The translations under genes were made by a program, and so were the position numbers. A DNA stretch of 43,922 nt from Betaproteobacteria bacterium. GTDB lineage: Bacteria > Pseudomonadota > Gammaproteobacteria > Burkholderiales > SG8-41. The DNA lies in the NCBI GenBank assembly GCA_016192825.1, contig JACPTK010000027.1, positions 1-43,922 on the forward strand. Direction: 5' to 3'. The notes beneath the pieces were generated by a model. It made no database searches and was not told where the DNA came from. It saw only the letters and a program-made list of their open reading frames with translations. Shown here in pieces: positions 4,683 through 41,731 of the stretch (position 1 is the first letter of the stretch; each line of letters begins with the position of its first letter).

Positions 4683-6656
4683 ATGAAGACGCTCCCCGCA
4701 CTGCTCGCCGCTGCGTGCGCGCTGTGGGGCGCGCAGACCGGCTACTGGATCGTCGCGGCGGCGGCGGCGGTCGCGCTCGAGGCGCCGCGCTTCGTGACGC
4801 TGCGCTGGAACGTGGAGCAGGCGCACTTCAACCGCCTGTCGGACTTCTGCAGCGCGTTGATCGTGGCGGCGGGCGTCTATTTGTACTTCACCTACGGCAA
4901 CCCGCGGGCACTGATGCTGCTGTTCCAGTGGATGCCGGTGCTGCTGCTGCCGCTCGCCCTGGCCCAGGCCTGGGGCAATCTGCGCGAAGTGGACATCGCC
5001 GCCTTCGTCTGGACCCTGCGAAAGAGCCCGGCCGCCGAGCGCTTCGCGCTCAATCTCGGCTATCCCTATCTCGCGGCGTGGATCGTCGCCGCCGCCGCGG
5101 CCAACGTGCGCGGACCGGGGTTCTTTATCGGCCTGATCGCGCTGGTGGCCTGGGCGCTGTGGGCGGCACGGCCCCGGCGCTATCCCCTCGTGTTATGGGT
5201 CGCGCTGCTCGCCGCGACGGCCGGCGCCGGCTACGGCACGCAACTCGGGCTGCACCGGGTCCAGGCCTGGATGGAGGAAGTCATCCCGGAATGGATCAGC
5301 GCCAGCGGCTCGCGCACCGACCCCTACCGCAGCCGCACCGATCTCGGCGCCATCGGCGAGCTGAAGCAGGACGATGCCATCGTGCTGCGGCTGCGCGCGG
5401 ATGAAGGGGTGAAAACGCCCCTGCTCCTGCACCGCGCGAGCTACAACAGCTACTTCGGCCGGACCTGGAGCGCGCGCAATGCGCCGCTCGTGGCGCGGCC
5501 GCCCGAGACGGGAACGCGCTGGGCGCTGCGCCGCGACGCCGCGCCGGGCGCGCGCGTGACGGTATTCGACTATTCCCCGCGCGGCAACCCGGTGCTGGCC
5601 CTGCCGCGCGGCACGGTCGAGCTGCGCGGCCTCGAGGCGCTGAGCCTGCTGCGGAACGGCCTCGGCACGGTGCAGGCGGAATTGCCGCCGGGGTATTTCA
5701 CCTACGTTGCGGTGGTGAACCCGGGAGCCGGGATCGACGACAGCCCCAATCAGGAGGACCTGCGGATCCCGCTGGGCGAGCAGTCGCTGTTCGGCGGGAT
5801 CGTGGAACGCCTCGGGCTGTCCGGCCTGCCACCCGGAGAAGCGGCCGCGGCGGTCAAGCGCTACTTCGCCGACGGTTTTGGCTATTCCCTTTACCAGGAA
5901 AAGAGCTTCGGCAGCCGCTCCGCGCTCGCCGACTTCCTGTTGCGGACACGGGCGGGCCACTGCGAGTATTTCGCCACCGCGACGGTGCTGCTGCTGCGCG
6001 CGGCCGGCGTGCCCGCGCGCTACGCCACCGGTTTTTCGGCGCAGGAGTACAGCCGCCTCGAGAACGCCTGGATCGTGCGGGTGCGCCATGCCCACGCGTG
6101 GGCGAAGGCCTGGGTCGACGGGCGCTGGGTGGACGTGGATACGACGCCGTCCACCTGGGCGCGGATCGAGGGCCAGCAGGCGTCCGCCTGGTGGTCGGCG
6201 ATCGCGGACCTGTGGTCGTGGCTGCGCTTCCGCCTGTCGCAGCTCGGCGCGGGCGGGCGCGAGGAAGAACGGACCGCCGCGATCGCCGCCGGCATCGCGT
6301 TGCTGGTCGGCCTGTGGTTCGGCTGGCGTCTCTACCGGCAGCGGCGGCTGATGGTGTTCGGGAAACGCGGCGAAGCGCGGCAGGAATCACGCGCGCAAGG
6401 CGCCGATTCCGAGCTCTACCTGATCGAGCGCGAGCTCGCGAAGGCCGGCCTCGGGCGCCTGACCAGCGAAACCATCATGACCTGGGTCGCGCGCGTCAAA
6501 GACCGATTGCCCCGCGGCATGGATGCCAACGCCCTGGCGCGCGTCGTGCGGCTGCACTATCGGCTTCGTTTCGATCCGGCGGGCCTGCCGGCGCCGGAAC
6601 GCGACGAGTTGCGGTCCGGCGCGCGCGCGTGCCTGGCTCAAATGCGTGATTCGTGA
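4683..6656 (+). CDS. tgpA: TgpA-like transglutaminase (DUF3488 and transglutaminase core)
   Basis: A 657-residue membrane protein with several N-terminal membrane spans (about residues 5-190), a large periplasmic transglutaminase-like domain, one more span (about 540-560) and a short cytoplasmic tail. The catalytic triad is visible: Cys in GHCEYFAT (about 427), His in HAHAWAKAW (about 470) and Asp in WVDVDTTP (about 485). Pseudomonas TgpA is the best known relative. It is third in the moxR operon. The ATG at 4683 is preferred over an in-frame TTG at 4656, which lies inside the hairpin. The last codons and stop (RDS-stop) are written by a GTGATTC heptamer array, so its C-terminus also ends in a repeat. 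Confidence 0.93.
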   Translation: MKTLPALLAAACALWGAQTGYWIVAAAAAVALEAPRFVTLRWNVEQAHFNRLSDFCSALIVAAGVYLYFTYGNPRALMLLFQWMPVLLLPLALAQAWGNLREVDIAAFVWTLRKSPAAERFALNLGYPYLAAWIVAAAAANVRGPGFFIGLIALVAWALWAARPRRYPLVLWVALLAATAGAGYGTQLGLHRVQAWMEEVIPEWISASGSRTDPYRSRTDLGAIGELKQDDAIVLRLRADEGVKTPLLLHRASYNSYFGRTWSARNAPLVARPPETGTRWALRRDAAPGARVTVFDYSPRGNPVLALPRGTVELRGLEALSLLRNGLGTVQAELPPGYFTYVAVVNPGAGIDDSPNQEDLRIPLGEQSLFGGIVERLGLSGLPPGEAAAAVKRYFADGFGYSLYQEKSFGSRSALADFLLRTRAGHCEYFATATVLLLRAAGVPARYATGFSAQEYSRLENAWIVRVRHAHAWAKAWVDGRWVDVDTTPSTWARIEGQQASAWWSAIADLWSWLRFRLSQLGAGGREEERTAAIAAGIALLVGLWFGWRLYRQRRLMVFGKRGEARQESRAQGADSELYLIERELAKAGLGRLTSETIMTWVARVKDRLPRGMDANALARVVRLHYRLRFDPAGLPAPERDELRSGARACLAQMRDS

Positions 6657-6740
6657 TTCGTGAGTCGTGATTCGACGCCAGAAGTTTGCAGTGGGCCGTT
6701 TGCAGTTGCTGCCAACTGACGACTGGCGGCTGGCGGCTGA
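6646..6740. repeat. Heptamer arrays between tgpA and the zinc-ribbon gene
   Basis: Four units GTGATTC, GTGATTC, GTGAGTC, GTGATTC (6646-6673) contain the tgpA stop codon. They are followed by further 7-bp-periodic sequence of the AGTTTGC / GGCGGCT type up to the end of the convergent gene at 6741. A third array lies at 7151-7171, on the far side of that gene. Confidence 0.75.
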
Positions 6741-11021: not shown

Positions 11022-11834
11022 TTAAGGGGTTGATAAGGAAACGCGGGCGATAAACGCCCGCGTTTCCTCAGCGCAGCGATCGGCGTCGCTCGCGGCAACG
11101 TGATACGAATCTCCCGGCACCACCAGCAGTCGCGAGCGGGGAATTATCCGCTGCCACGCCCGCGTTTCCTCGACCGGGCCGAGGCCGCTCTTCTCGGTCG
11201 TGATGACGAGCGTCGGGCAACGGATTCGCCGGAGCGAATCCGTTATGTCGGAATCCGCGATGGTCGAGATAAAGCCGACCTGGGTCGAAACTGCGGTCCG
11301 TCCCATGAGCCGGATCCACCACTCGACCCCTTCCGGCGGAAAGCGGCTGCCGAGGCGTCCCGCCATCGTCCTGCGCGCCCAATGCTCGACCCCTTTGTTC
11401 TCGAACTCCGCGATCAACTCGGGGCGCGGCCCGACGCCGCGCCGGGGCGCGGGCGTGCCCGCGACAGCGAGCGTCACGATGCGCGCAGGATTGCGCGCGG
11501 CGAAGTAGCGCGCGATGGTTCCGCCGATCTTCGCGGCGACGAGATGGAAGCGCTTGACGCCGAGCGCGTCCATCAGGCCCAGGTAATCGTCGCAGATGCG
11601 GTCCAGCGTCCACGGAAAATCGCGCGGCATCGGGGTGGAAGCGCCGAAGCCGCGCATGTCCGGGCGCACTACCCGGTAATGGCGCGCGAGGTGCGGCACC
11701 CAGGCGAACCACGCCGCGCCGCTCTCGGCATTGCCGTGGAGCATCAGCACCGTCTCCGGCTTGCGCCAGGGATCGGTGTAGTCGTCCACGACGTAGTGCA
11801 GCTCGCAGTCGGGGGAAGCGCGGTGGGTCGGCAT
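11022..11834 (-). CDS. Alpha/beta hydrolase-fold protein lacking the nucleophile serine
   Basis: This 270-residue protein has a clear alpha/beta hydrolase layout. The oxyanion HGN motif is at 33-35, a DMRGFGAS turn follows, and a late His lies in GDSYHVAA (about 244). At the nucleophile elbow, where GxSxG is expected, it reads AAKIGG (residues 99-104), so Lys101 replaces the catalytic Ser. It may not be an esterase at all, or may use different chemistry such as a cofactor-free dioxygenase or decarboxylase type. That is inference. The 3' end (IARVSL) is encoded by a 15-bp hairpin. It lies upstream of the GDSL esterase and may be co-transcribed with it. Confidence 0.85.
   Translation of the reverse strand: MPTHRASPDCELHYVVDDYTDPWRKPETVLMLHGNAESGAAWFAWVPHLARHYRVVRPDMRGFGASTPMPRDFPWTLDRICDDYLGLMDALGVKRFHLVAAKIGGTIARYFAARNPARIVTLAVAGTPAPRRGVGPRPELIAEFENKGVEHWARRTMAGRLGSRFPPEGVEWWIRLMGRTAVSTQVGFISTIADSDITDSLRRIRCPTLVITTEKSGLGPVEETRAWQRIIPRSRLLVVPGDSYHVAASDADRCAEETRAFIARVSLSTP
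11036..11068. repeat. Hairpin inside the 3' end of the hydrolase gene
   Basis: AGGAAACGCGGGCG and CGCCCGCGTTTCCT form a long perfect stem around a 5-nt loop. It is in-frame and codes for part of the C-terminal residues of the hydrolase; the stop lies about 12 nt beyond. It resembles the hairpin at 1880-1904, which also starts AGGAAA and also sits at a gene end. Confidence 0.75.
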
Positions 11835-11941
11835 GGCTCGGGCGGTAACGATATCTGCGGCATTCTAGCAGCGCCGAATGAAGAGGCGTGACATCGCAGC
11901 CAGCGGGGGGCGAGAAACTATTCTGCCTTGTGCCTTCAGCT

Positions 11942-12303
11942 AGCCGCTGGCCGGGTCCTGTCAGAACGGCCGGCGCCTTCCCGATACTCCCGAACGCTTC
12001 CAGGCATAGGACTTGGCCGTCGTGTTGCCTTGAGTCAGTACCGGTTCCGGGAGTATCGGATCAGTCACCGGCCATTCTGCCACCCGGGTGCGGCTGGGGT
12101 GTGCGTCAAACACACTTTGAATGAGCCCGCTCGACCATCGGCCCGGCATCACGAGTTGCGAACCCCCCAGATAAAGAAATGCCGACAGGATCATTTGTCT
12201 TGTTGGTCCGGGCCTCATGCGGCTGTTCCCGCAAACGGGCCTGCGGCTAACGAGTCACAGCCGCCCCCCCTTGCCCGCCCTGTTCCGCTGACGCCGGTCA
12301 GCG
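11942..12303 (+). repeat. Structured three-copy element, copy 1
   Basis: The core (11942-12100) contains nested stems: CCGGGT/ACCCGG, CAGAA/TTCTG, GGCCGG/CCGGCC and CCGATACTCCCG/CGGGAGTATCGG. These close on a highly conserved apical segment, ACTTGGCCGTCG then GTTG and GTCAGTAC. The 3' part ends with CGCTGACGCCGGTCAGCG, itself a hairpin. Compared with copies 2 and 3 there are paired changes that keep the stems (GATACTCC/GGAGTATC here, GATTCTCC/GGAGAATC in copy 2). This copy has about 130 bp of extra sequence before the final hairpin. It lies upstream of the hydrolase and downstream of the dCTP deaminase gene. Confidence 0.85.
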
Positions 12304-12359
12304 AAAAAAGCCGACAAACCTTGGTGGTCGCTTAAGAACGCTCTTGGGAAAATACGGCG

Positions 12360-12377
12360 AATAGCGAGCGCTATTCC
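12360..12377. repeat. Hairpin over the dCTP deaminase stop codon
   Basis: GAATAGCG and CGCTATTC form a perfect 8-bp stem. The deaminase's stop (TAG on the minus strand, 12371-12373) lies inside it. There is no T-run. Confidence 0.6.
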
Positions 12378-13555
12378 ATCCTGAAGTGCTTGCTGAGGGC
12401 GATGCCCTGCTTCTGGTACGACGACTTCACACCGCCGGCGCCGTATAGCCGGGTCGGCTGGGAAGTCAGCCGCTCGTAAGTCAACCGGCCGACGACCTGT
12501 CCATCTTCGATTACGAATGGGACTTCATAAGAACGGACTTCCAATACCGCGCGTGAGCCCTCACCGCCCGCCGCCGGGTGTCCGAAGCCCGGATCGAAAA
12601 ATCCCGCGTAATGGACGCGGAATTCTCCTACCAAGGTGTCGTACGCAATCATCTCAGCCGCGTGCGTCGGGGGAACTTTGACCGGCTCGCGCGAGCCAAG
12701 TATGTAGAAATCTGCCGGATCGAGGACCAGGCCGCCGCGACGAGGTGCATGCACCGGATCCCAGAAGTCCCTGAAGTCATAATGCCGAACCTTGTCGATG
12801 TCGATCAGCCCTGCATGGTTTTTCGCCTTATAGCCGATCAACCCACCGAACGCGTCACCGCGGACGTCGACTGAAACCGGCAGACCGTTGCGAATATCGT
12901 CTTCGCTGATGTCCGAACCGATGACCTGCGCCTCTTCCTGGAGACGTCTCAACGCCTCGTCCGTCGTGAGCGGATTGCCGCGACGTATCCGGATCTGGCT
13001 CAGCCGGGAGCCCTTGCGCACCAGCACGCTGAACGTGCGCGGCGAAACCTCGGCATAGAGAGGCCCTTTGTACTGTTCCCGGACGCGGTCAAACTCCGTG
13101 CCATGGTCAGTGATCAGCCGCGTGAAGATGTCCAGACGGCCTGTCGAGCTCTTGGGGTTCCCCATCGCCGAAGTGCGATGCCGCAAGTTCAAGTGTTCGA
13201 GCAAGGGAACGATGTAAACGCAGCCGCGCTCCAGTACCCCACCCTCGCTGATGTCCATCTTGTGCATTGCGAGGTCTTCAAGCCTTTGCTCAACTGTCGC
13301 ACTCTTCCCAGGCAAGAAGCTTGCGCGCACCCGATACGCAACCGGCCCAAGTCGAAGATCTAGGCTGGCGGGTTGAAATTGATCATCCTGGATCGTGTCG
13401 ATCGCCTGGATTTCCTTGGTTACCCGGACCAGATGTTCCAAACCCTGCGAAGGCAGTATCCCCGTCGAATGCGCCGCGACTTCGGACTCCTCGCCGACCT
13501 CGTCGAGGACACCTTGTTGCGCGAGGACGTTATTCCTGTAAGCCACTTCCGCCAC
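12371..13555 (-). CDS. dcd: 2'-Deoxycytidine 5'-triphosphate deaminase (large form)
   Basis: A 394-residue protein of the long, duplicated dCTP deaminase family (about twice the size of E. coli Dcd), which converts dCTP to dUTP. The first half has the Dcd signature QPASLDLRLG (61-70), the active-site SSTGR (136-140) and the catalytic-type Glu in LYAEVS (about 169). The second half repeats the fold with DPGFGHP and VVGRLTYER. The start is taken as the GTG at 13555, which overlaps the upstream zinc-finger gene by 26 nt; a GTG at 13546 is possible. It is bracketed by two copies of a structured repeat and lies among defence-gene debris. A role in nucleotide-depletion phage defence, as shown for other dCTP deaminases, is therefore possible, besides simple pyrimidine metabolism. 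Confidence 0.88.
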   Translation of the reverse strand: MAEVAYRNNVLAQQGVLDEVGEESEVAAHSTGILPSQGLEHLVRVTKEIQAIDTIQDDQFQPASLDLRLGPVAYRVRASFLPGKSATVEQRLEDLAMHKMDISEGGVLERGCVYIVPLLEHLNLRHRTSAMGNPKSSTGRLDIFTRLITDHGTEFDRVREQYKGPLYAEVSPRTFSVLVRKGSRLSQIRIRRGNPLTTDEALRRLQEEAQVIGSDISEDDIRNGLPVSVDVRGDAFGGLIGYKAKNHAGLIDIDKVRHYDFRDFWDPVHAPRRGGLVLDPADFYILGSREPVKVPPTHAAEMIAYDTLVGEFRVHYAGFFDPGFGHPAAGGEGSRAVLEVRSYEVPFVIEDGQVVGRLTYERLTSQPTRLYGAGGVKSSYQKQGIALSKHFRME

Positions 13556-13745
13556 CGAGTATTCTTTTCTGACGTTCCACGATGTCGAGTTCGTAGTACT
13601 TCGTATAGCAGGTCAGGCTACAAAATCCGCCCTTTGCTTTCTGCCCTGAGCCTACTCGTTCGGTTGGGGGAAATGCTTTTCCGCAGAATGGGCAAATACC
13701 GCGTTCCCAACAATCAGACAGAAACGCTTCCTCGGTAATAGCCAA
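13530..13745 (-). CDS. Small zinc-finger protein upstream of dcd
   Basis: A 71-residue protein I cannot assign to a named family. It has four cysteines in two pairs, CPFC (18-21) and CSLTC (42-46), separated by a Lys/Gly-rich loop, as expected of a treble-clef or zinc-ribbon knuckle. A short helical tail (YYELDIVERQKRI) follows. Its end overlaps the start of the dCTP deaminase gene, so the two are probably translated together. The start is uncertain: the frame opens with a TTG at 13745 and has no ATG. It might modulate the deaminase or bind nucleic acid; the sequence alone does not decide this. Confidence 0.6.
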   Translation of the reverse strand: MAITEEAFLSDCWERGICPFCGKAFPPTERVGSGQKAKGGFCSLTCYTKYYELDIVERQKRILGGGSGLQE

Positions 13746-13887
13746 TTCTGTTGCTCACTATGGAGTCATTGATCGGCTAATTTCGACCTCGTACACCTAA
13801 TATTACTCCCGGCGCAAGCTAGGTGGGCTGGCTTTGCGGCCCGTCCCTGGACGTTTTCTGCCTTCTGCCTTCGGCGAGCGGATGCTC

Positions 13888-14119
13888 AGCCGCTTGCCGG
13901 GTCCTGTCGGAACGGCCGGCGCCTTCCCGATTCTCCGCACGCATTCGGGCAATTGACTTGGCCGTCGCGTTGTCTTGGGTCAGTACCTGTACCGGAGAAT
14001 CGGATCAGTCACCGGCCATTCCGCCACCCGGGTGCGGCTGGGGTGTTGCACTCCAAGAGCTTGAAGAGGGCCCACTAAACCGCCCCCACCACCCGCCCTG
14101 TTCCGGTGACAACGGCGTT
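13888..14119 (+). repeat. Structured three-copy element, copy 2
   Basis: It has the same nested stems as copy 1: CGGAA/TTCCG in place of CAGAA/TTCTG, GGCCGG/CCGGCC, and CCGATTCTCCG/CGGAGAATCGG (perfect 11 bp). The apical segment ACTTGGCCGTCGCGTTGTCT is conserved. The 3' portion includes the shared CCGCCCCCACC and CCCGCCCTGTTCCG, and ends in a hairpin GACAAC/GTTGTC. Two heptamer-like units (CTTCTGC) precede it at about 13857. It lies between the zinc-finger gene and the broken 3' end of hsdM. Confidence 0.85.
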
Positions 14120-15282
14120 GTCCACGCGTGAAACTCCGTCAATCCAAATGGTTGGCGAGGTCCGACCAAGGGCGAGGGACAGGGGTCATCCCTCGGCCCT
14201 CTCCTGAGGGATGAGCCGTTCATGATGATGGCGACGCGCGAGCCCTCCTCCGCCTTCGGCTTCATGTGGGACAGCATGTGCTGGAGGAACACCATCTGGC
14301 CGTCCGATATTCGCGGCAGCCCCGCGCCGAAGCGCCCGGCGTCGCCCCGTTCGTGCTCGGTCTCCACCGCCTCCTGGTCGCGCTTCCAGTCCTTGCCGTA
14401 CGGCGGATTGGCGATCAGGTAATCAAACTTGCGCCGGGGGTGGCGGTCGTTAGAGAGCGTCGAGCCGTAGGCGATGTTGTCCGCGTCGCGCCCCGTCGGG
14501 TCCTTGATGAAGAGGTCCGACTTGCAGACCGCAAAGGTCTCTGGATTCACCTCCTGCCCGAAGATGTGGATATCCACTTTCGGGTTGATGCCCGGCCGGC
14601 CGTCCCCGAGGATGTGGTCCTTGGCGATCGTGAGCATGCCGCCCGTCCCGCAGCACGGGTCGCACACCGTGATCGCGAGGTGCTCGCGCTTGAGCCGCTT
14701 TTCGTCGCCCGCGATGAGGAGATCCACCATCAGGTGCACCACGTCGCGCGGCGTGAAGTGCTCGCCCGGATTCTCGTCGAGCGCCTCGTTGAACTTGCGG
14801 ATCAGCTCCTCGAAGATCGTTCCCATCGTCGTGTTGTCCACGCGATCGGGGTGCAGGTCCGCATTCTTGAAGCGCTCCAGCACCTTGAACAGCAGCCCCT
14901 CCTCGTCGAGTTTGGCGATCGTGGTATCGAACCCGAACTTTTCGATTACCTCCCGCATGTTCGGCGAGAAGCCATTGATGTAGTTGCGCAGATTGGCGGC
15001 GAGGTTGGGCGCATCCGCCAGCAGCTTCTCGAAGTCGTAGAGCGAAGTGTTGTAGAACGCGAAGCCCGACGCCCGGCGCAACTGCGGGTCGAGGTTCTCC
15101 AGCTTGCCCTTCAACTTCTTGTTGGTGTCCAGCACCTTCTGCTTCGTCGGCGCGAGCACGCAATCGAGCCGCCGCAGCACCGTCAGCGGCAGGATCACGT
15201 CCTGGTACTTGCCGCGCTTGAACGTATCGCGGATGAGGTCCGCGACGCCCCACAGAAAACTGACGATTTCGCCGTGATTCAT
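14005..15282 (-). pseudogene. hsdM: Type I restriction-modification methyltransferase HsdM, 3'-truncated
   Basis: Residues 1 to about 355 are a good HsdM: the N-terminal helical domain (FLWGVADLIRDTF, then YQDVILPLTVLRRLD), the SAM-binding motif CDPCCGTGGM (about 205-214) and the N6-adenine methylase motif NPPYG (about 291-295). Homology stops at IIMNGS (about 14216). After that the frame runs into unrelated sequence, including a 9-bp hairpin (TCATCCCTC/GAGGGATGA) and structured-element copy 2, and ends at 14005. About 100-150 residues of HsdM are missing. No hsdS or hsdR is present in the window, so the system is dead. ATG at 15282. Confidence 0.85.
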
Positions 15283-15631
15283 GAAGCACGATCCGATGAG
15301 CTGTCGGCAGGCAATTTATCCCCTTTGAAACGATAACCCCGCCCGGGCCTTGCGGCAGATCGGACGGGGAGGAAGTAGTCGTGAACTATAAGCCGCCACG
15401 CGGTCGATTCCAATACCCGCGACTCCAGCGTGCGGGTTCTCTTCGAAGGAGGCCTTGAACGAATTCTCCTCCTTCTGAGGGGGGAGGGATCGAGGGAGGG
15501 GGTGGTTCTGGGCCCCCTGTACGCCGCCGAGCAGCAAGGAGATCGACCGGCGTCGATCTCCTGAAGGATGAAGGCAGAAGGATGAAGGATGATCCCCGCG
15601 GCGAAACAATCGGGACGCAGACGATTGATCT
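15283..15631. other. Gene-free spacer upstream of hsdM
   Basis: I see no coding frame with family similarity. It contains a perfect 10-bp hairpin GGAGATCGAC-CGGC-GTCGATCTCC (15538-15561). This is directly followed by four heptamers GAAGGAT, GAAGGCA, GAAGGAT, GAAGGAT (15563-15590), and then structured-element copy 3. Confidence 0.6.
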
Positions 15632-15864
15632 CGCTGACGTCCGTCAGCGGAACAGGGTGGGCGGTGGGGGCGGTCGAGCGGGTCCCTCTCCACTCTGTGG
15701 GACGGATGCACCTTCCGCGGCCGGGTGGCGCAATGGCCGGTGACTGATCCGATTCTCCGGTACAGGTACTGACTCAAGACAACGCGACGGCCAAGTCAAT
15801 TGCCAGATTGCGCCCGGGGAATCGGGAAGGCGCCGGCCGTTCCGACAGGACCCGGCCAGCGGCT
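15632..15864 (-). repeat. Structured three-copy element, copy 3 (inverted)
   Basis: Read on the minus strand, it starts AGCCGCTGGCCGGGTCC and shows GGCCGG/CCGGCC and CCGATTCCCCGG/CCGGAGAATCGG with one unpaired position. The apical segment ACTTGGCCGTCGCGTTGTCT is identical to copy 2. It ends in the hairpin CGCTGACG-GA-CGTCAGCG. It lies in the opposite sense to copies 1 and 2, between hsdM and the downstream oxidoreductase. Another small hairpin (GCGTCAG/CTGACGC, about 15866-15888) follows at its start. Confidence 0.85.
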
Positions 15865-15923
15865 GAGCGTCAGACGCAATCCCTGACGCGCGGGGCTTAT
15901 CCGCAAGCTGCGACTAGACGTGC

Positions 15924-17552
15924 TCAGCGCCGCTGCGCGCGATCGCGCCTGCGCCCGCGGCGCAGGTCACGCAGGATTTCCCGCGCAGCGTTGTGACCCG
16001 GCATTCCCGACACGCCACCGCCCGGATGCGTGCCCGCCCCGCACAGGTAGAGCCCGGTGACCGGCGTGCGGTAATCGGCGTGCCCCAGCACCGGGCGCGC
16101 GCTCCAGAGTTGGTCGAGCGTCAGCGCGCCGTGGAAGATGTCGCCGCCCGTGAGCCCGAACTCGCGCTCGAGATCGAGCGGCGAGAGGACCTTGCGCCCG
16201 AGCACCGCGCTCTTGAAGTTGGGCGCATAGCGCGTGACCGTGTCGATCACCAGGTCGGCCGCGGGCTCCCGGATGGCGTCCCAGCCGAGGCCGTCGGGCA
16301 GGTCGTACGCGAAGTGCTGGCAGAACAGGCTGGCCACGTGCCGGCCGGGCGGCGCGAGCGTCGCGTCCACCGTGGACGGGATCAGCATCTCCACGATCGG
16401 CGCGCGCGAGCAGCCGTGAGTGCGCGCGTCGAAGTAGGCCTGCTCCATGTAGGCGAGCGAGGGCCCGATGATGATGCCCGACTGGTGATGCGCCTGCAGG
16501 TGCCTGCCGGGCAGGCAGGTGAAATCCGGAAGCTCCGAGAGCGCGACGTTGACGCGGAAGGTCGCGGAGCCGCACTTGTAGCCGCGGATGCGCTGCACGA
16601 AATCGGGCTCGAGCACGCGCTCGTCGACGAGCTTCAGGAACAGCCGCTTCGGATCGAGGCCCGCCACCACGCAGCGCGCGTCCACCATGCTGCCGTCAGC
16701 GAGCTGCACGCCCTGCGCGCCGCGGTCGTCCACGCATACCTTGCTCACCTCGCAATCGACGGTGATCTCGACCCCGCGCCGCTCGGCCTCCCGCGCCATC
16801 GCCTGCGTGATCGCCCCCATGCCGCCCACGGCGTGGCCCCACGCCCCTCGCCGGCCGTTCACCTCCCCGATCACGTGGTGCAGCAGCACGTAGGCGGTGC
16901 CCGGCGCGTACGGGCTCGCGTAATTGCCGACCACCGCGTCGAAGCCGAACGCCGCCTTGATCGGGGCGGATTCGAACCAGGCGTCGAGCAACTCGCCCGC
17001 GCTCTTGGTCATGAGGTCGAAAAAATCGCGGCGCGCGGCCACGCCGGCCTTGCGCATGCGGTAGACGGCGCGCAGCGCGGCCAGCGCCGCGCGCGCGCCG
17101 CCGCCGATGTTGGGCGGGGTTTCGAGCAACTGCTGGCGCAGCACGCCGCCGGCGCGCTCCAGCATCGCGTAATAGCCGGGCAGCCGCTCGGCGTCGCGCG
17201 CCGAGAACCGGCCAAGCTCGGTCTGCGTCTGGCCGAGGGAGTTGCCGATCTTGAGATAGCCGCGGTCGGAGAGCGGCAGAAAGTTCGCGAGCGGACGCTC
17301 GAGGATCCGCAGCCCGTGCTCGGCGAGCCGCAGGTCGCGGATCACCTTCGGGTGCAGCAGGCTGACGGTGTAGGCGGCGGCGGAGTTGCGGAAGCCCGGG
17401 AAGAATTCCTCGGTGACCGCGGCGCCGCCGACGACCGCGCGGCGCTCGAGCACCCTCACCTTGTAGCCGGCGCCGGCGAGGTAGCACGCGCAGGTCAGCC
17501 CGTTGTGACCGCCTCCGACGATGAGCGCATCGTACGGTTTGGGAGTGGGCAT
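15924..17552 (-). CDS. FAD-dependent oxidoreductase, phytoene desaturase / PYROXD2 type
   Basis: A 542-residue flavoprotein with the N-terminal dinucleotide-binding fold (VGGGHNGLTCACYLAGAG, about residues 11-28) followed by VRVLERRAVVGGAA, typical of the CrtI/PYROXD2 family. The C-terminal FAD motif LYLCGAGTHPGGGVSGMPGH is also present. The long form without neighbouring carotenoid genes is closer to PYROXD2-like proteins than to true phytoene desaturases, so the substrate is unknown. The ATG at 17552 fits the FAD motif spacing. It stands alone, between the repeat-rich hsdM region and a toxin-antitoxin pair. Codon use and length look normal, so it is probably functional. Confidence 0.9.
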   Translation of the reverse strand: MPTPKPYDALIVGGGHNGLTCACYLAGAGYKVRVLERRAVVGGAAVTEEFFPGFRNSAAAYTVSLLHPKVIRDLRLAEHGLRILERPLANFLPLSDRGYLKIGNSLGQTQTELGRFSARDAERLPGYYAMLERAGGVLRQQLLETPPNIGGGARAALAALRAVYRMRKAGVAARRDFFDLMTKSAGELLDAWFESAPIKAAFGFDAVVGNYASPYAPGTAYVLLHHVIGEVNGRRGAWGHAVGGMGAITQAMAREAERRGVEITVDCEVSKVCVDDRGAQGVQLADGSMVDARCVVAGLDPKRLFLKLVDERVLEPDFVQRIRGYKCGSATFRVNVALSELPDFTCLPGRHLQAHHQSGIIIGPSLAYMEQAYFDARTHGCSRAPIVEMLIPSTVDATLAPPGRHVASLFCQHFAYDLPDGLGWDAIREPAADLVIDTVTRYAPNFKSAVLGRKVLSPLDLEREFGLTGGDIFHGALTLDQLWSARPVLGHADYRTPVTGLYLCGAGTHPGGGVSGMPGHNAAREILRDLRRGRRRDRAQRR

Positions 17553-18433: not shown

Positions 18434-19165
18434 CTATTTCTGACGACAGGCGGTAGCGGTCAATGGGCGTTCGAGTCTTGCGACAGACGCATCCGCCCTA
18501 CGCGCGTGTCCCCATTTAAATTCGGCGAATACGTCGATATCTCTTTCGCCAGATTGCAAAAATTCCAAAAAGCTCACTCCTTTGCACTTGCACGTCTCAC
18601 AAATGCTGAGAAGAATCGAGTATTCTCGAATTCCTTTTTCGGTAGATAAACCACTAAAATCTCTGCGAAGCAACGCAATGGCCTTGATGGCGTGTTCCGC
18701 ATTGTTGTTGTTCCATGGCACCCCATCGTAGTCCAGAAACGTAAACAGGCGAGAGCGGTTTTTTTCTAATCGCGCCTTACACTTCCGCGCGATTTCGGTC
18801 TGAAACGTCTGTTTGCAGGATTCCAGATCCTGCGCACGAGCAAGGAGGCCCACGGCCAAGCCCCATTTTGTCGTCTTCAGGCACCCCGCGTCGAGTGGAC
18901 GCATGAGGCTTCCGTCCGAAGGGACTCCCTCCATCAGGCGTCTGAGCCCTTGGTTACGGTAAGACTCTTGGTGAGTCTTTGCCCAGGTCGCGTAGACGTT
19001 TTCCGAATGTGCCTCGCCGAGCGATAGGAGAAAGCATTTGGTGGAGCATTTGAGGAAGGCTTCGAATAGATGGGACGTAATTGTCACGGTAGCAGTACCC
19101 CCTCCAACAATCGCCGACAATGTCAGAGTGAGTATAAAGCTCGTCGGCACCCGGAGTCCGGGCAC
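18434..19165 (-). pseudogene. IS66-like transposase, C-terminal remnant
   Basis: The frame contains the C-terminal part of an IS66-type DDE transposase: SRLFTFLDYDGVPWNNNNAE with the conserved Glu of the catalytic triad, AIKAIALLRR, and then STEKGIREYSILLSICETCK and FLEFLQSGERDIDVFAEF. Upstream of about residue 60 the sequence no longer looks like the family. Another frame (18954-19217) seems to carry part of it, so there is a frameshift. The last 25 residues are run-on. No terminal repeats could be matched, and the N-terminal and central catalytic parts are missing. Its A+T content is visibly higher than that of its neighbours, in line with foreign origin. Confidence 0.7.
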
Positions 19166-30648: not shown

Positions 30649-30656
30649 GGGCCGCC

Positions 30657-30684
30657 GTGATCCGTGATCCGTGATCCGTGATCC
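30657..30684. repeat. Perfect tetrameric heptamer array between gcvPA and gcvPB
   Basis: Four identical copies of GTGATCC, the cleanest array in the window, just upstream of the gcvPB start. Confidence 0.9.
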
Positions 30685-30716
30685 GTCACGCTTGCCATGT
30701 TCGCACTCCTTTCCGG

Positions 30717-41462: not shown

Positions 41463-41731
41463 GTGAACGGTGAACGGTGAACGGTGAACGGTCAGGCGCT
41501 GCCGGGATTGCCTCACCACACGAGTAGAAACAAACGCTGCATCCGCCGAGGGAAGCCAACCACTGTGGTAGACTGCCGCCCTCCGCCAACCGGTGTGGGC
41601 GTCCGCGCGGCGCGAAGTTGCCGCAACTGGCGGCTCGCAGGCGTCTCATAATGGAATTCTAGCGTGAAGCACGCTTTTCTACCCAAGGACCGGCGAACAG
41701 GCCGGTTCGCCGTTAACCGTTCACCGTTCAC
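41463..41731. repeat. Inverted GTGAACG / CGTTCAC arrays flanking the cutA-reductase divergent region
   Basis: Four copies of GTGAACG (41463-41490) lie just upstream of cutA. CGTTAAC, CGTTCAC, CGTTCAC (41711-41731) lies 8 bp before the reductase start. The units are exact reverse complements, and the arrays enclose the whole divergent promoter region (about 220 bp). Confidence 0.85.

Follow-up and report, generated by a model that had tools for sequence, protein, structure and literature searches.

What is the foldable repeat that occurs three times around a dCTP deaminase gene (dcd) and an hsdM open frame in a 43,922-nucleotide stretch of DNA from a Betaproteobacteria bacterium (order Burkholderiales; GenBank assembly GCA_016192825.1, contig JACPTK010000027.1)? 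This whole stretch is referred to here as the window, and the repeat as E. An earlier note, made from the letters of the window alone, attributed the element to selection on a folded RNA or on folded single-stranded DNA such as a recombination or transposition end. The explanation we favour, with a little more confidence than doubt, is that E is a structured end of composite gene cassettes, resembling a miniature inverted-repeat transposable element (MITE).

E is a hairpin-forming DNA repeat of approximately 235 bp, and a repeat search recovered all three copies that the note had located. The inverted arms of copies 2 and 3 extend over 157 nt and are 93% complementary, while the blocks common to copies 1 and 2 are 80-96% identical. 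Allowing up to 3 mismatches, a 19-nt motif from the 5' arm is found at 3 places in the 43.9-kb window, compared with 0.08 expected occurrences. Copy 1 aligns as two pieces (11938-12137 and 12214-12313), the insert in its 3' part amounting to about 75-125 nt, and such extra sequence is also present in the copy at position 641 (plus strand) of locus L041. The terminal hairpin is retained as the note had described, but it does not have a different sequence in each copy, those of copies 1 and 3 being nearly identical and only that of copy 2 differing.

The organization of E across its copies was derived from 25 core references, 23 of which were aligned, leaving out the second start of one L042 copy (a 22-nt tandem duplication) and L051 (a run of N). 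With regard to the terminal inverted repeats of a single copy, as in a MITE, the self-closing core of about 152 nt begins with CCGCTGGCCGGGT and ends with ACCCGGCCGCGG, but approximately 85 more conserved nucleotides lie on its 3' side, where a variable part is followed by the conserved stretch GGGCCCACTGGACCGCCCCCACCACCCGCCCTGTTC and often by a terminal hairpin. The 5' edge is sharp, lies near CCGCTGGCCGGGTCC and adjoins variable sequence; the outer ends have the sequence CAGCCGCTGGCCGGGTCC or one close to it.

CTTCTGC-type tracts stand just beyond the 5' end of many copies in the own genome (G000) and in a relative, G002, and several tandem repeats of differing units, all with an exact 7-base period, occur in the window at 15562-15592, 1206-1228, 6645-6674, 30655-30686 and 41463-41492, among others. 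In L042 (10287-10261) and L052 (9195-9158), a short stretch from the beginning of E is repeated directly outside a full copy, perhaps as a remnant of an earlier insertion.

The long nested stem is borne out by the folding of copy 2 as DNA (z = -3.43 against 200 shuffles), and both stem compensations named in the note are confirmed. Copy 1 has CGATACTCC/GGAGTATCG where copy 2 has CGATTCTCC/GGAGAATCG; the other compensation is CAGAA/TTCTG versus CGGAA/TTCCG, with copy 3 carrying a mismatch at the latter (CGGAA/TTGCG). Across 23 copies and a stem of 33 pairs, 92.7% of the cells pair in an alignment fitted to the stem, a procedure favouring compensation in the counts that follow. Changes on both sides affect 11 of the 33 pairs (6.3 in shuffles, 0 of 500 reaching 11; 0-6 in slid controls) and 32 cells (14.1 in shuffles, 0 of 500 reaching that number), and further pair types show no excess, 58 of 500 shuffles being as high. 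When six copies are aligned without reference to the stem, 4 pairs are changed on both sides (1.4 in shuffles; 5 of 500 as high). In the unfitted alignment of 23 copies, where insertions and deletions shift the inner stem, RNAalifold gives a different structure with 1 of 26 pairs changed on both sides. The fold of E as an inverted repeat is well supported, and it does not distinguish RNA from DNA. Template switching between the arms of a palindrome can likewise produce compensated changes.

Whether one strand is the functional one bears on the possibility that E is the gene of a structured RNA (a regulator, for instance, or a guide-type RNA with variable flanking sequence) travelling with defence-like cargo. 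The reverse strand gives the more stable fold in 22 of the 23 cores, and a strand-neutral count finds fewer non-wobble mismatches on it (A.C 61-63 versus G.T 8-14 on the strand as drawn; A.C 23 versus G.T 8 with two near-fixed columns set aside), whereas the stem-fitted alignment points the opposite way (G.T 33 versus A.C 24). The strand evidence is accordingly mixed, and no strand preference is claimed. The one-sided fold stability, the nested stem with its compensated pairs, the nearly invariant segments and the sharp 5' edge beside variable sequence are all compatible with an RNA gene. The mixed strand signal tells against it, as do the searches: Rfam 15 gives no match in the window at the gathering score and none for E at an E-value of 5 or less in 11800-16000, in keeping with the note's failure to recognise a riboswitch; no protein partner is common to the copies scanned; and a simple consensus scan finds no promoter-like site in an E copy. 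We consider an RNA gene improbable, and an RNA function is not needed to account for E.

The family is narrowly distributed. With copy 2 as the query, the own assembly (5.1 Mb, 123 contigs) gives 20 matches, grouped into 16 copies including fragments, and E is a short, non-coding, multicopy repeat of the kind termed MITE. A relatives search over 41 genomes and a search of 74 genomes of the family each find E in 3 genomes (G000, G002 and G003), all belonging to one genus. A covariance-model search matches only the own genome in each draw, in 1 of 300 genomes of the order and 1 of 369 of the class, with the 8-10 best first-look candidates per genome scored and G002 and G003 presumably absent from the draws. 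A pattern of 26 positions (21 fixed) is found in 11 stretches of genome contigs, ten of them from the two known genomes and one, L074, matching over only 29 nt, which is taken as chance; the pattern has no exact match in viral contigs, and copy 2 has none in the plasmids or phages searched. The window and 20 stretches together give 37 nhmmer rows, counting pieces and one reverse-strand palindromic match. In a tree of the cores, whose support values are unexamined, the seven G003 copies cluster, as expected if E multiplied within lineages. Among the literature matches listed, no title or abstract describes E.

The placement of E is mostly explained by its orientation. Of the 22 copies that could be used, 18 have a higher guanine-plus-cytosine (GC) content on the 5' side than on the other (p = 0.002; means 0.648 on the 5' side versus 0.602 on the 3' side), the 22 being those that remained of 29 after 7 with less than 400 bp on one side were dropped, and not being independent of one another. 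Native sequence therefore tends to adjoin the 5' end of E, and imported genes its 3' end. The exceptions are two copies beside dcd, one copy of a direct pair and one lone copy. In the window, the block 12340-13800, which contains dcd, has a GC content of 57.6%, compared with 66.4% for the window as a whole.

Copies occur in both orientations and are often convergent, with the 5' end outward. A convergent pair in the window (13888+/15864-) encloses the hsdM fragment; others enclose a DUF4236 protein and a second protein without a Pfam match in L040 (7374+/10624-), and a cupin protein and an unknown protein in L057 (8375+/10220-). The bracketed cargo in these three loci lacks transposition genes. 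Convergent pairs with one partial member are found in L058 and L052. The genes between copies in L041 are restriction-modification genes, an RNase H-domain protein and a YhcG-type nuclease, those between the direct copies in L042 a HigB-like toxin and a helix-turn-helix (HTH) protein, and ORF6N, PIN-domain and HTH proteins and one relative of phage lambda ea8.5 adjoin other copies. The note's question of whether copies elsewhere flank other cargo is thus answered: the cargo in L040, L057, L041 and L042 differs from that of the window.

Such short blocks with toxin-antitoxin-like and restriction genes, next to a folded element, recall an integron, in which E would be a folded single-stranded recombination site like attC and an integrase would have inserted the blocks as cassettes. 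The exchange of cargo at a site of G000 and G002, described below, would suit that reading as well. The copies, however, stand in both orientations rather than in one direct array, and no integrase is found among the cargo proteins scanned, no genome-wide integrase search having been made. We regard this reading as very improbable, and the cassette system to which the note likened the copies is not borne out in an integron-like sense.

Relatives provide sites that lack the block and keep the flanking genes, clearly at two sites and partially at a third (L057). The genes flanking the window block are only 22-31 bp apart in G007; in G002, G004, G005 and G009, the GDSL and FAD genes adjoin without dcd or hsdM, and only the FAD gene is seen in the G008 stretch. 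In the stretches retrieved from six relatives, neither dcd nor hsdM is matched. The flanks of L040 are 33-288 bp apart in G002, G001, G004, G006 and G008, a spacer that is itself variable, so that the exact insertion point is not readable. At the L057 site, G001, G002 and G007 have no match to E, and other content there differs too. In the L040-site spacer (L139-L143), the repeats differ from relative to relative, G001 and G004 having TCGGCGTTCATCGGCGG-type sequence there.

Movement between sites is suggested by comparison of G000 with G002. The dcd gene with its E edge is 94.9% identical over 1541 bp in the two genomes, where it lies at different sites, above the 84-88% identity of their native flanks. 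At one site common to both genomes (L051 1600-2580 versus L044 15860-15960), E is present, the cargo differs and the E core points in opposite directions in the two species when viewed from their shared native flank. The PIN-domain block of G002 at this site is flanked by a repeat of the 3' end of the native gene.

A site that keeps E while its cargo differs is also what would be expected of a dispersed palindromic repeat spreading alone, with cargo blocks arising or changing through homologous recombination between copies instead of transposition. The existence of a lone copy and of direct pairs, as well as the lack of a duplication at the block ends, agrees with this alternative, from which neither the tendency of 5' ends to face outward (18 of 22) nor a convergent pair at a site that is without it in five relatives would be expected. 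We consider recombination between copies a doubtful explanation, while giving it more weight than the RNA or integron readings.

Several results weigh against cassette ends moved by transposition. No target-site duplication is detected, the longest direct flank match being 4-6 nt in five pairings compared with 4-8 nt in mismatched pairings; the test is weak because the outer ends of E are not fixed to the base, and the same limit applies to the failure to find a duplication of 5-6 bp at the outer ends in the five candidate pairings. No transposase could be assigned to E among the proteins scanned, which did not include every cargo frame and were not drawn from a genome-wide search. The pairs around dcd in the window and around HigBA in L042 are direct, L039 is a lone copy (for which the relatives search lists mostly paralogues and E itself), and the inner ends of E come in several types. 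Many copies lie at contig ends, the assembly breaking at them. Furthermore, dcd is widespread in the family, with matches in 54 of 74 genomes, and the dcd gene of G003 has no E within its 4.2-kb locus, so dcd is not exclusive cargo of E. Within the genus, dcd matches at an E-value of 1e-60 or less occur in 3 of 10 genomes, several of them incomplete, and these are exactly the three that bear E.

The only transposase seen between E copies is IS256-like (L044, 16383-17384, minus strand), scoring below the NCBIfam cut-off and without a Pfam match. Its element has its own inverted ends of about 24 nt, as judged by eye, and interrupts an ORF6N gene; an IS256-like element also lies at the end of L113, in a frame that appears ORF6N-like by eye. 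The IS256-like protein between the copies on contig C110 was rejected as the transposase of E, its own inverted ends (by eye) lying inward of E and another copy beginning on contig C86 in a frame read by eye as ORF6N-type; on its other side, the C110/C59 element adjoins an ORF6N frame. Contigs C110 and C59 have 141 identical end bases and therefore probably join. Their E copies run + + + - -, two of them being fragments, an order that, like the + + - of the window, may have arisen by nested insertion.

Taken as a non-autonomous, MITE-like repeat with a nested-palindrome core, E would bound, or would once have bounded, composite cassettes in pairs, with its sharp 5' end outermost and its 3' end pointing toward the cargo. 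A transposase acting in trans would move the two copies and everything between them as one block. We infer that a transposase did the moving, that it would act on the outer ends of E, and that the fold may matter for recognition. Of the two readings in the earlier note, the "transposition end" is the one that the wider evidence favours. It is unlikely, in our judgement, that E marks an undescribed class of transposon in which folded hairpins of about 235 bp are the recognised ends and genes are gathered between two of them, in this lineage, by means of an enzyme unlike known families.

The features of the window are listed in Table 1. The hsdM frame extends into copy 2, and matches to the FAD gene are found at an E-value of 1e-60 or less, two of the best ones being only 46-47% identical. 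A partial IS66 transposase (PF03050, E-value 2.7e-08) lies at 18434-19165 on the minus strand.

Table 1. Copies of E and adjacent genes, in window coordinates
Feature	Position	Strand	Remarks
alpha/beta hydrolase, native left flank	11022..11834	-	adjoins the right-flank gene in G007
E copy 1	11942..12303	+	3' part interrupted by extra sequence, roughly 12138-12260
dcd, two-domain dCTP deaminase	12371..13555	-	PF06559, PF22569; cargo between direct copies 1 and 2
71-aa open frame with CPFC and CSLTC motifs	13530..13745	-	zinc finger of the earlier note; named by eye
E copy 2	13888..14119	+	nested stem 13890-14039, then variable part and terminal hairpin of different sequence
hsdM open frame, C-terminally cut short	14005..15282	-	N6_Mtase 4-192 of 311; MTase_I 5-359 of 661
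E copy 3	15632..15864	-	convergent with copies 1 and 2
FAD-dependent oxidoreductase, native right flank	15924..17552	-	matches in 10 of 10 genus genomes

If pairs of E do move cargo, this little-known betaproteobacterial lineage possesses gene-shuttling ends of its own that, being gene-free, are invisible to annotation, with cargo that includes restriction, toxin-antitoxin-like and nucleotide-metabolism genes. The 152-nt model, combined with the orientation rule, offers a search image for the family.

Comparison with known systems begins with the palindromic repeats of bacterial genomes. E resembles REP, ERIC and Correia elements in being intergenic, foldable, present in several copies per genome and lineage-specific. 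To our knowledge, these elements do not usually bracket imported gene blocks. REPs are reported to be 20-40 bp long (PMC3733652, PMC2267715). With attC, E has in common a folded site accompanying small mobile cargo, and it differs in orientation pattern and in the lack of an integrase in the cargo scanned.

Closer counterparts are the gene-free repeats TIME1-4 (262 bp) and MITESen1 (256 bp), and the TIME-COMP structures, in which unrelated cargo that lacks transposition genes lies between two repeats, either inverted or direct; the sources also mention one block of lower GC content than its plasmid, predicted folds at the RNA level and the occurrence of single copies, and describe TIMEs as having 38-bp Tn3-type repeats and duplications of 5-6 bp, with a transposase acting in trans (PMC4133298, PMC13367494). 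Measured against these, the outer ends of E do not appear to read like Tn3 ends, no duplication was found, the core consists of a nested palindrome about 150 nt long and the 5' end tends outward. E is not assigned to TIME-COMP in view of its outer ends and the negative duplication result. With its pairs of gene-free repeats of about 235 bp that bracket cargo of lower GC content, E most likely works as TIME-COMP structures do. Its reading as a MITE-like end of composite cassettes is one that we judge slightly more credible than not.

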